Origin: a virus
Reading direction: 5' to 3' (one strand)
DNA: 64,000 bases
Virus record (IMG/VR): IMGVR_UViG_3300028027_000057
Span: 1 to 64,000 of that record
Part shown: positions 3,200 to 13,829 of the stretch, in pieces
Layout: every line of letters begins with the position of its first letter
Numbering within the stretch: position 1 is the first letter of the stretch
The notes under the pieces: generated by a model
Told to the model about the DNA's origin: nothing
What the model saw: the letters and a program-made list of their open reading frames with translations, nothing else
The model's database searches: none
Made by a program: the position numbers and the translations under genes

Positions 3200-3457
3200 A
3201 TGAGCAAGCTACTTGTTATCTATCAGTATAATAACGCTCCATCTACTAGAAGAAATGGAGCAAACGCGGGGTGGGATGGAACTCTAGGACCTTGGCAATA
3301 CTTAACATTGAAAAGAACAGGCAATAAAATAAGAAAGTACGATACTGGATATGGTAGAACTGGTAGTAGCCCAACTACAATCAAAGATTGGGAAGATAAC
3401 TGCGTCAATACTGAGTTCAAACTGGAGTTCATATATGACACGAGTGGTGACTCATGA
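3200..3457 (+). CDS. Small FKLEFI-tail protein, copy 7 (long form)
   Basis: An 85-residue member of the F-K-L-E-F-I group beginning MSKLLVIYQY and carrying E-F-K-L-E-F-I at about 72-78, followed by Y-D-T-S-G-D-S. The middle is longer and rich in Gly, Arg, Trp and Tyr. The tail codons again read CTGGAGTTCAT (3422-3432) with an ATG 3 nt further on, but here that ATG opens only a seven-codon frame; the real next start (3454) overlaps the TGA. AGAGG at 3189-3193 is the likely SD. Confidence 0.75.
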   Translation: MSKLLVIYQYNNAPSTRRNGANAGWDGTLGPWQYLTLKRTGNKIRKYDTGYGRTGSSPTTIKDWEDNCVNTEFKLEFIYDTSGDS

Positions 3458-7608: not shown

Positions 7609-8070
7609 ATGAATATATTTGTAACGTCTCCATGTCCAACAGAGTCAGCTAAGTTTCTAGACAATAAACGCAAGGTTAAAATGGCGCTAGAGTCTACTCA
7701 GATGTTAGCAACTGCATTAAATGTTCATGGAATTCACACAGGATATAAGACTGCACATCTTAATCATCCCTGTTCAATCTGGGCTAGACAGTCTAAACAA
7801 AACTGGATATGGTTGTGGGAACATGCAGTCGCTCTATGTTCAGAATATAATCGTATATATGGAAAAGAACATGCTTGTGTTAAAATGTTATACAATATGA
7901 TAGGTAATGAAGACCTATTACCAAACATTGGATTACTACCATTTAGTAATTGCGCTAGATCAAAAGAAAAAGGTATTGACTATACGGGAGTAGATGATAT
8001 ATATTTAGCTTATAAACTTTATCTCAATGATCGTTGGGATCAAGATAAACGCGAACCGGCATGGTCATAA
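7609..8070 (+). CDS. Conserved phage protein (MNIFV...NHPCxxWAR family)
   Basis: A 153-residue protein with strongly patterned residues seen in many phage proteins: an N-terminal N-I-F-V-T-S-P-C-P, then K-V-K-M-A-L-E-S-T-Q-M-L near 24-34, and N-H-P-C-S-I-W-A-R-Q-S near 52-62. Relatives in databases are sometimes labelled pyrimidine-dimer glycosylase, a label I cannot verify here. Position directly after nrdJ (8-nt gap with AGGAG-like GGAG) fits a role in nucleotide or DNA metabolism. Catalytic role unknown. Confidence 0.7.
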   Translation: MNIFVTSPCPTESAKFLDNKRKVKMALESTQMLATALNVHGIHTGYKTAHLNHPCSIWARQSKQNWIWLWEHAVALCSEYNRIYGKEHACVKMLYNMIGNEDLLPNIGLLPFSNCARSKEKGIDYTGVDDIYLAYKLYLNDRWDQDKREPAWS

Positions 8071-8584: not shown

Positions 8585-9211
8585 ATGAAGATTACATGCA
8601 TATCGGATACGCATCAACATCATAAGAAGATCAAGATGCCTAGTACTGATATGATTATATGCGCCGGAGACTTTACATATCACGGAGAACTAGAAGAAGT
8701 ACAGAAGTTCCTTAAATGGTATGGACAACAGAAAGCCAAACATAAGATTCTAGTATGTGGTAATCACGAGAAATGGATTAGCCAACAAGGTGATCTACTT
8801 AAGTTACTATGTGAGAACGAAGGTATCAAACTACTACATAACTCATATACTACAATCGAAGGACTTACAATCTGGGGGTCTCCTTACTCTAAGAAGTTTG
8901 GAGCATGGGCATACGGACTAGACGAGACAGACCTAGCCAACCTATACGATACTATCTTACCCACTACTGACATAGTAGTAACACATGGACCGGCTTACGA
9001 TAGACTGGACTGGTGTCCGAATGGTAAGGTAGGAAGCACAGCATTGGCTCACCGACTAGACGAGCTTAGTAATTTAAAGCTACATATCACTGGACATATA
9101 CATGAAAGTCGTGGTACTCTATTACGGAACGGGGTGTTAACAGTTAACGCTTCTATTTGTGGTATACCATATTCAGATGTGATTTACAATCCAATCACGG
9201 TGGAGTTATAA
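8585..9211 (+). CDS. Calcineurin-like metallophosphoesterase
   Basis: A 208-residue protein with the dinuclear-metal motifs of the family in order: D8-T-H10, G-D-F near 29-31, G-N-H-E near 56-59, V-T-H-G-P near 138-142 and T-G-H-I-H-E near 169-174. The I-W-G-S-P segment resembles the MPPED-type subgroup. Substrate could be a phosphodiester or cyclic nucleotide; a counter-defence role is possible. I choose ATG 8585, two bases after the previous stop and behind GGAGGA, rather than the longer frame opening at 8492, which would overlap the previous gene by 92 nt. Confidence 0.85.
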   Translation: MKITCISDTHQHHKKIKMPSTDMIICAGDFTYHGELEEVQKFLKWYGQQKAKHKILVCGNHEKWISQQGDLLKLLCENEGIKLLHNSYTTIEGLTIWGSPYSKKFGAWAYGLDETDLANLYDTILPTTDIVVTHGPAYDRLDWCPNGKVGSTALAHRLDELSNLKLHITGHIHESRGTLLRNGVLTVNASICGIPYSDVIYNPITVEL

Positions 9212-9549
9212 TGCTAAGACTATTATCTATACTTGTAGTATTCCTAATTTTAATACAATATGTTAAAGCTGAGACTAGATTTCCAACGGATAAGGTACAA
9301 CACATAGAAGGAAAGAGACTATATGTATTATATTGCACTCGCTGTCATAACGCTAATCCTAGCAACGCTGGCTCTATCGGTCCAGAGTTATACACAACTC
9401 CAAGTAATGTCTTCAGAACGAAAGTGCCAGAAGGAAAATATCCGAGCGGGTATACACCCAAGAGACGTACGAAGATCATGCCGAAGTTTCCGCAGTTAAA
9501 AGATAAAACTGATTTGATATATAACTATATCAGGAGCACAAAGAAATGA
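9211..9549 (+). CDS. Secreted monohaem c-type cytochrome
   Basis: A 112-residue protein with an N-terminal signal peptide (Leu/Val/Ile-rich core at 4-18, likely cleavage after V-K-A20) and a haem-attachment site C42-T-R-C45-H46. A downstream I-M-P-K-F with Met90 is well placed to be the sixth haem ligand, and P-Q-L-K-D-K-T-D-L-I-Y-N-Y-I resembles the C-terminal helix of class I cytochromes c. Such proteins carry electrons in the periplasm and need the host haem-ligation system. The start is ATG 9211, overlapping the previous TAA and preceded by GGAG at 9202-9205. Phage-borne c-type cytochromes are rare; contamination is unlikely because the flanks are continuous phage genes. Confidence 0.8.
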   Translation: MLRLLSILVVFLILIQYVKAETRFPTDKVQHIEGKRLYVLYCTRCHNANPSNAGSIGPELYTTPSNVFRTKVPEGKYPSGYTPKRRTKIMPKFPQLKDKTDLIYNYIRSTKK

Positions 9550-9656
9550 GTGAGACAGTAGGATCAGTATGTTGTAAAGAAGAATGTATAGGAACTGAAT
9601 ACGAATGTGCTTGCCAAACTTGCGTAGCTCGTGATAAAGTAAAGCAAGAGGAGTAA
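9546..9656 (+). CDS. Tiny cysteine-rich protein
   Basis: A 36-residue protein with six cysteines (positions 9, 10, 14, 21, 23, 26) arranged as C-C-x3-C and C-x-C-x2-C, flanked by acidic and basic ends. It overlaps the cytochrome stop (ATGA), so the two are probably translated together. The pattern suggests metal or Fe-S binding, metallothionein-like or zinc-ribbon-like; no family is recognised. Confidence 0.6.
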   Translation: MSETVGSVCCKEECIGTEYECACQTCVARDKVKQEE

Positions 9657-9658
9657 GT

Positions 9659-10036
9659 ATGACACAATTCCATCATGTTCGTAAGTATACCCTAACTAGT
9701 TTTTATACTGTCATGGAGATTGAAGAAATAAATCCCCGCGGTGGGAAAACGATAGCCATGGAAGATATCGAACCTTGGTTGTTAAATCAATTAACAGTGG
9801 GAGACTTCTTCACTAGACGAGTCGGAGTAGCTCGTTGTTCAGACGAAGAGAACTATAATAAGAAGACCGGCAGAGAACTAGCTGAGTCTAGAATGAAACC
9901 AGTAGTACTTACTGTCCTAGCTAAGAATGACTTCGGATCAATTGTAGTGGCGGCACTTAAAGACGATAAAGGAAATGTATACGGACTAGAGCTTAAGAAA
10001 GGCGCTAAGTCAGTACATTTTGTAGCTTATGAATAA
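9659..10036 (+). CDS. Hypothetical protein
   Basis: A 125-residue mixed alpha/beta protein with T-V-G-D-F-F-T-R-R-V-G-V-A and a C-terminal F-V-A-Y-E. GAGGAG precedes the ATG by 6 nt inside the Cys-rich gene. No family recognised. Confidence 0.65.
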   Translation: MTQFHHVRKYTLTSFYTVMEIEEINPRGGKTIAMEDIEPWLLNQLTVGDFFTRRVGVARCSDEENYNKKTGRELAESRMKPVVLTVLAKNDFGSIVVAALKDDKGNVYGLELKKGAKSVHFVAYE

Positions 10037-12859: not shown

Positions 12860-13106
12860 GAGTCGTTCCTATAAAAAGAACAAAGAAGTAACATTCTCTC
12901 TGAACTTTACAAAGTACGGAGAGTATAAGTGTGAGTGTTGCAGCAGAGCCCCTCTTTATAGAAATAAGTCAGGAGAGTCACACTCTTTTGCAAACACCGC
13001 GACTGTAGACCATATCTTAGATTTATCTAAAGGTGGATCAAACGACATTAGTAATTTGCGAGTTCTTTGTTTTGAATGCAACAATGACAAATCGAATAAG
13101 GTATAA
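12831..13106 (+). CDS. HNH endonuclease
   Basis: A 91-residue protein with a complete small HNH module: zinc ligands C-E-C-C near 35-38, V-D-H near 60-62 with the catalytic His, S-K-G-G-S-N-D-I-S-N near 67-76 and L-C-F-E-C-N near 80-85. Such stand-alone HNH enzymes nick or cut DNA and may aid packaging or homing. It starts within the small basic gene and abuts the next gene. Confidence 0.8.
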   Translation: MRTMTEKMRRSRSYKKNKEVTFSLNFTKYGEYKCECCSRAPLYRNKSGESHSFANTATVDHILDLSKGGSNDISNLRVLCFECNNDKSNKV

Positions 13107-13829
13107 ATGAGATTACTTAATTTATTATTAGCAACGACTATCTTCTTTCTTTTAATAAATATTAAAGTATCTCAAACTCCAGTCAGAGAAAAGGTATTCA
13201 TCCCTTATGTAGAAAGTCTATGTGTTGCTCTAAAAGAAAGAGGACATTCCTGTAGATTAATAGAAACAGTATCTATTAGAAAAGCAGTGCTATCTAAGAA
13301 ACTAGCAGGGCTTTATCACCCACTAGCACACGACATACTAATCAGTACTGAAGTGTGGGATAGGTCAAGCGATGAAGTAAGAGAGCAGTTAGTATATCAT
13401 GAACTAGGTCACGCGCTAGGGTTAGACCATATAGAGTATGGAATTATGCAGTCCGGTGGATTTATTAACGATACATTTTATAAAAGATACAGAGATATGT
13501 TTATTGAAGAAATGCTAGGAGAACTAGCATTAACACCTAAGGAGAAGCTAGTGACAAAAGCAGATGTGCTAAATAACAAACATGCTGTAGTGCGATTTAC
13601 TGCAACATGGTGTCCTCCTTGTAAAGCTCTAGCTCCAATCTTTGATGAAGTCGCGGCTGCAAATCCAGACGTTGTAACGTATGTTATAGACGTAGATCAG
13701 AACATGGACCTAGCTAGGGATATGGGAGTCAGAGGATTGCCGACGATGATTCAAATCAAGGATAATGCAGTGTCGACATCTCTTGTTGGCTTGCAGTCTA
13801 AAACTGAAGTAGAGAAGCTATTCAAATGA
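13107..13829 (+). CDS. Metalloprotease-thioredoxin fusion with N-terminal membrane anchor
   Basis: A 240-residue two-domain protein. Residues 5-19 are a signal/anchor segment. The first domain has H98-E-x-x-H102-x-x-G-x-x-H108 and a candidate Met-turn I-M-Q-S at 113-116, the metzincin-type zinc protease signature. The second (about 150-240) is a short thioredoxin with W168-C-P-P-C172 and the cis-proline in G-L-P-T at 210-213. An in-frame GTG at 13551 (residue 149) is preceded by AAGGAG with a 6-nt spacer, so a separate cytosolic 92-residue thioredoxin may be made too. The long form is probably extracytoplasmic. Thioredoxin could reduce the class II reductase. Confidence 0.8.
   Translation: MRLLNLLLATTIFFLLINIKVSQTPVREKVFIPYVESLCVALKERGHSCRLIETVSIRKAVLSKKLAGLYHPLAHDILISTEVWDRSSDEVREQLVYHELGHALGLDHIEYGIMQSGGFINDTFYKRYRDMFIEEMLGELALTPKEKLVTKADVLNNKHAVVRFTATWCPPCKALAPIFDEVAAANPDVVTYVIDVDQNMDLARDMGVRGLPTMIQIKDNAVSTSLVGLQSKTEVEKLFK
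13551..13829 (+). CDS. Possible internal product: stand-alone thioredoxin
   Basis: This is a nested frame inside the fusion gene starting at GTG 13551 with an excellent SD (AAGGAG, 13539-13544). It would give 92 residues containing only the thioredoxin fold with W-C-P-P-C near 20-24. Length is slightly below the usual 105-110. The alternative is that the SD is a relic of two ancestral genes now fused. Translation from this site is inferred, not shown. Confidence 0.5.
   Translation: MTKADVLNNKHAVVRFTATWCPPCKALAPIFDEVAAANPDVVTYVIDVDQNMDLARDMGVRGLPTMIQIKDNAVSTSLVGLQSKTEVEKLFK

Follow-up and report, generated by a model that had tools for sequence, protein, structure and literature searches.

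The window, as the whole stretch of DNA analysed here is called, is 64 kb of a 75,088-base IMG/VR virus record from a tailed phage. At positions 9211–9549 of its plus strand lies a 112-residue frame with an ATG start, translated as MLRLLSILVVFLILIQYVKAETRFPTDKVQHIEGKRLYVLYCTRCHNANPSNAGSIGPELYTTPSNVFRTKVPEGKYPSGYTPKRRTKIMPKFPQLKDKTDLIYNYIRSTKK, which the open reading frame itself, Pfam, alignment, AlphaFold2, VIA-align and dN/dS identify as a cytochrome c gene. A likely ribosome-binding site, GGAG (9202–9205, +), stands 5 nt 5' of the ATG. Sequence and alignment point to a putative cleavable signal peptide at residues 1–20 (MLRLLSILVVFLILIQYVKA; 9211–9270, +), since the N-terminus is hydrophobic and ends in QYVKA before ET, a junction that would fit signal peptidase I; residue 17 is Tyr in the window copy versus Cys17 in its closest relatives, which leaves it without a canonical lipobox. 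The haem-attachment motif C42-T-R-C45-H46 (9334–9348, +) is kept in all family rows, and the family signature GKYPSGYTPKRRTKIMPKFP (9433–9492, +), recognized in the alignments, contains the distal haem ligand, predicted from the alignment spacing to be Met90 (9478–9480, +), 48 residues past Cys42. In the AlphaFold2 model the C-terminal helix of the cytochrome fold spans residues 100–109 (9508–9537, +).

Judged from its sequence, the product is a monohaem class I c-type cytochrome, putatively exported in view of its hydrophobic N-terminus. The initial annotation had proposed a phage-encoded periplasmic c-type cytochrome, and this is borne out by conserved haem ligands, a profile match, the fold, purifying selection and the phage context. 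Against Pfam PF00034 (Cytochrom_C) the window copy scores 20.7 bits (E 1.1e-3; gathering score 21.3), and its relatives in phages L004, L005 and L015 score above the gathering cut-off. CxxCH is present in 51 of 51 aligned family rows and also in further phages found later, so that the motif, whose conservation that annotation had taken as a test, is conserved in every homologue inspected. A Met stands 48 residues beyond the first Cys in nearly all of the 51 rows, preceded by a YPxGYxPKR signature (in fuller form YPxGYxPKRxTxxM), and the window copy matches both the signature and the family profile. When the window protein was shuffled, CxxCH arose in 0.03% of trials; other CxxCH frames do exist in the window, resembling an HNH-type nuclease and a small low-complexity frame, and the motif by itself is therefore insufficient.

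A cytochrome fold, set beforehand as a second test of the assignment, is what structure prediction gives. The AlphaFold2 model, built with nine related sequences, has a pLDDT of 81.7, and the 50 rows shown by VIA-align are all c-type cytochromes or proteins with c domains, at a moderate Z of 7.3 or less over 79 residues. Most top rows of a Foldseek search were cytochromes at a weak best E-value of 0.31, and no cytochrome was matched in a search of viral folds (BFVD). With Z moderate and the Foldseek E-values weak, the fold backs the case but does not carry it. Purifying selection is evident from a dN/dS of 0.12–0.13, at a dS of about 1.3, between the window gene and those of L002 and L003. That the frame encodes no cytochrome, its CxxCH having arisen by chance in a small Cys protein, might be argued from the window's Pfam score falling slightly under the gathering cut-off, but conservation across the family, the profile matches of relatives exceeding that cut-off and the fold leave this a negligible prospect, and it was rejected.

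Directly upstream, and translationally coupled through an overlap of its stop with the cytochrome start (TAATG), is a metallophosphoesterase gene (8585–9211, +) that is syntenic in relatives: the phosphoesterase adjoins the cytochrome in L003 and is one gene away in L002. The PADLOC match is to the phage-defence candidate PDC-S10 (207 bits, E 7e-62), here on a phage genome; the cytochrome itself had no match among candidate defence families. The tiny Cys-rich overlapping gene described in the initial annotation is present, as a 36-residue frame with six Cys (9546–9656, +) that shares 4 bp (ATGA) with the cytochrome gene, but it is not part of a conserved unit, for the syntenic L002 and L003 carry a different gene at this position, and it was rejected as a component of the system. 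The gene after it (9659–10036, +), with no assigned function, is conserved in L002 and L003 at 48% identity. Further along, at 13107–13829, is a probable exported fusion of a metallopeptidase-like region (HELGHALGLDH) with a thioredoxin domain (WCPPCK), found in three related phages (the window, L002 at 12969–13751, and L003), the window version being about 42% identical to the others; it may be relevant to thiol chemistry in the periplasm or to the attachment of haem.

The surrounding genome is that of a genuine phage. It encodes a major capsid protein (phrog_14242), a class II ribonucleotide reductase and a DNA polymerase of family B that has relatives in phages; the terminase and portal genes lie in its last 11 kb. 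Elsewhere in the window are a RimK-like ATP-grasp ligase (719–1453; phrog_2599, with a TIGR00768 family match below cut-off) and a pyrimidine dimer DNA glycosylase domain (7609–8070; PF03013, E 1.1e-7). A run of tiny frames of about 50–85 residues (245–722, 1422–1774, 2362–2541 and 3200–3457) appears to be a repeated small-protein family with a common C-terminal tail, nearly all of its members ending in or near F(K/N/S)L(E/A)FI.

Several unlike phage lineages, represented by at least 12 IMG/VR records, carry the cytochrome. Close relatives in L002 and L003 carry it at 78–79% identity, and iterated searches recovered homologues in phages L004, L005, L015, L156, L157, L159, L160, L161 and L162. 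The window, L004, L015, L159/L160 and L162 have some genes in common, and L157 groups with L015; L005 shares almost nothing besides the cytochrome with the window, and L156, a contig of 119 kb, includes a gene for a tail sheath. The position of the gene differs among L004, L015 and the window. Three of 30 terminase-related records match the cytochrome, all of them known carriers beforehand, and absence from the remaining 27 marks the gene as dispensable, or accessory, in this phage group. The rarity in phages that had been claimed for such genes holds for isolates, where a tblastn search of 50,697 phage records with the window protein gave no match, but not for IMG/VR, in which the gene recurs. 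No previous description of an intact stand-alone phage monohaem cytochrome c turned up in a search of the open-access literature.

Phylogenetically, the phage rows are nested within bacterial rows, mainly those of Bdellovibrionota, in a tree of 83 columns, and the window copy sits on a long branch of 1.2–1.9 changes per column. Supported branches force at least two changes, yet an AU test on the 83 columns does not reject a single origin of all phage copies as one clade (p 0.12); the copies were probably acquired more than once. Loss of the lipobox was likewise considered as a general phage trait, the pattern being found in none of the first six phage rows versus 38 of 45 host rows. The lipobox-like Cys retained in L156 and L159/L160 weakens that generalization, and it is kept for the window alone.

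Homologues occur in bacterial genomes labelled Bacteriovoracales, Halobacteriovoraceae, SAR324, Deltaproteobacteria and Myxococcota, and the window copy is about 29–31% identical overall to the aligned bacterial rows. In Bdellovibrionota, to which the Bacteriovoracales genome belongs, a survey profile made from nine rows found the family in 47 of 241 genomes at E<1e-23; generic cytochromes followed at about 1e-7, a gap that bounds the family sharply. The same profile found it in 43 of 189 Myxococcota genomes. We delineated this DUF989-associated cytochrome family in the present analysis and found no name for it.

The association is with a membrane protein of the Urate_ox_N/DUF989 type, of about 230 residues, which adjoins the cytochrome in 34 of 36 cellular loci (one genome counted twice), including 30 of 30 from the Bdellovibrionota survey. 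A DUF989 neighbour is also found in 11 of the 12 Myxococcota loci examined, in several on the opposite strand, and in each of the genomes G147, G199, G219, G097 and G238 the DUF989-linked cytochrome gene is present twice, side by side. In PuuD, a urate oxidase, an 8-TM DUF989 domain is fused to a cytochrome c by way of which oxidation has been proposed to proceed, and DUF989 also occurs in shorter 4-TM proteins that lack a cytochrome domain, lie among other genes and have been assigned no function (PMC4562309). The gene context seen here suggests that a separately encoded cytochrome c serves the short proteins as well. A HemJ-like haem enzyme was considered for the DUF989 partner and rejected (hhalign probability 0.5%, no Pfam link). 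A DUF989 profile that matched a positive-control bacterial genome at 8e-109 matched none of 12 cytochrome-bearing phage records, some of which are fragments. The idea that phages carry the cytochrome and DUF989 together was dropped on this count, and the missing partner argues that the phage gene is homologous to the host cytochrome and not a copy of the host pair.

Bdellovibrionota are strongly indicated as the hosts of these phages. The best isolate hits of both the major capsid protein and the terminase (TerL) are to a phage of Silvanigrella aquatica, a member of Bdellovibrionota, and the terminase profile matches contig C4 of the Bdellovibrionota genome G239 (G239:C4) at 3e-100. Gene order on that contig runs from dnaE-like and lipB-like genes to a recombinase-like gene and then a prophage (names read from sequence, not individually searched), and eight prophage genes, among them terminase, portal and capsid, are collinear with the virion genes of the window. 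This prophage (about 25–53 kb; L063, L064) reads TAG as sense: seven in-frame TAG codons lie in its terminase, and reading TAG raises the coding coverage of a 39-kb stretch from 66% to 93%. Myxococcota were rejected as hosts: the cytochrome family is present there, but a search of 189 of their genomes yielded no related terminase, an empty result that alone proves little. A Cytochrom_C_asm protein is present in G239 and absent in the phage, and maturation would therefore fall to the host.

The explanation that we favour, and hold at about even confidence, is that the phage cytochrome is an auxiliary periplasmic electron carrier, matured by the host, that would feed or reroute host electron flow during infection. 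We infer its export, haem loading and redox function, the identity of its donor and acceptor, and its benefit to the phage. The protein would act in the periplasm of a Bdellovibrionota host, having crossed the membrane through Sec and received its haem from the cytochrome c maturation system of that host. Its ancestor would have been a bacterial lipoprotein cytochrome paired with a short DUF989 (Urate_ox_N-like) membrane protein, of which pair the phage would provide the cytochrome half only, in the window apparently without its lipid anchor. Electrons would most likely be taken from the host DUF989 membrane oxidoreductase, the natural candidate, or from another periplasmic donor, and passed to a terminal oxidase, such that respiratory flow may be kept or redirected during infection. 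Among the roles first offered for the gene, support of respiration or electron transfer is plausible and explains the data best; the suggested interference with cytochrome-based death or defence has no support here.

The phage copies evolve fast and still retain both haem ligands, which speaks for electron transfer as the function; they also retain the signature loop, which speaks for a specific partner. The Pfam score below cut-off, the long branch and the 27 of 30 related records without the gene count against the electron-carrier explanation, and the first two of these imply that the function of the window copy may have shifted. Whether the phage cytochrome would help the DUF989 pathway or hijack it may go either way as far as sequence can tell. 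A more specific proposal, which we put forward tentatively and think rather less probable than the general one, is that unrelated Bdellovibrionota phages repeatedly took the cytochrome half of a two-gene redox system, partly in anchor-free form, to take over electron flow from the membrane oxidoreductase.

It is conceivable, if unlikely, that the phage cytochrome is instead a decoy, a dominant-negative form displacing the lipid-anchored host cytochrome on the DUF989 protein and so draining or blocking the pathway. The phage records have the cytochrome without its membrane partner, and the window clade diverges fast and lacks the lipobox common in host copies, both of which a decoy would accommodate; however, a mere blocker would not need the two haem ligands that phage copies retain, and L156 and L159/L160 retain a lipobox-like Cys. 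A role in haem or redox stress independent of DUF989, whether scavenging of superoxide or peroxide or storage of haem in the periplasm, seems quite unlikely. Small monohaem cytochromes can scavenge superoxide, as has been discussed for PuuD (PMC4562309), and the same phage encodes the thioredoxin-domain protein at 13107–13829 with its possible signal sequence, but hosts and phages have the YPxGYxPKR...M pattern in common, and this speaks for a specific docking partner and not for a generic scavenger. We consider it very unlikely that the gene is a passenger, picked up repeatedly from hosts without any function for the phage: its sporadic occurrence among related phages, its varying positions in L004, L015 and the window, and its probably repeated acquisition (at least two forced changes, the AU test non-rejecting at p 0.12) would suit such a history, but the low dN/dS, the ligands left intact across strongly divergent synonymous sites, and the persistence of the gene in syntenic phages disfavour it.

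To return to the auxiliary electron carrier, the gene has traits of an auxiliary metabolic gene, namely a genuine phage genome, host homologues and maintenance under selection, and among phage electron-carrier genes both its family and its host group are new. If the explanation is true, an intact, selected, stand-alone cytochrome in unlike phages of Bdellovibrionota, a phylum of predatory bacteria, would mean that phages target periplasmic respiration beyond photosynthesis, and recurrence of the gene in several unlike viruses suggests that host respiration is being tapped into. The finding further draws attention to a redox pair widespread among hosts, a short DUF989 protein and a cytochrome c, that is evidently worth manipulating for phages; were the takeover proposal true, the membrane oxidoreductase must matter to hosts during infection.

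Most known phage electron-transfer genes come from cyanophages and sulfur phages. Cyanophages carry, for example, plastocyanin and ferredoxin, which resemble the window cytochrome in being small soluble electron carriers supplied by a phage and differ from it in belonging to other protein families and serving in photosynthetic hosts. In sulfur phages, SoxD, the cytochrome subunit of sulfane dehydrogenase, has been described from two viral contigs, in both cases lacking at least one cytochrome c motif (PMC8190135). It too is a c-type cytochrome on viral contigs read as an auxiliary metabolic gene, whereas SoxD serves thiosulfate oxidation and the window cytochrome has intact haem ligands and an unrelated gene context. 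Closest to the window copy are the DUF989-associated monohaem lipoprotein cytochromes of Bdellovibrionota and Myxococcota, which have the same domain, CxxCH, Met spacing and YPxGYxPKR; the host genes adjoin a short DUF989 gene and mostly encode a lipobox, whereas the phage records are without DUF989 and the window is without the lipobox. PuuD, like the host pairs, has a DUF989 membrane domain working with a class I cytochrome c (PMC4562309), but there the 8-TM domain is fused to its cytochrome, whereas the host pairs divide the two between separate genes with a short DUF989 and the phage encodes the 112-residue cytochrome alone.
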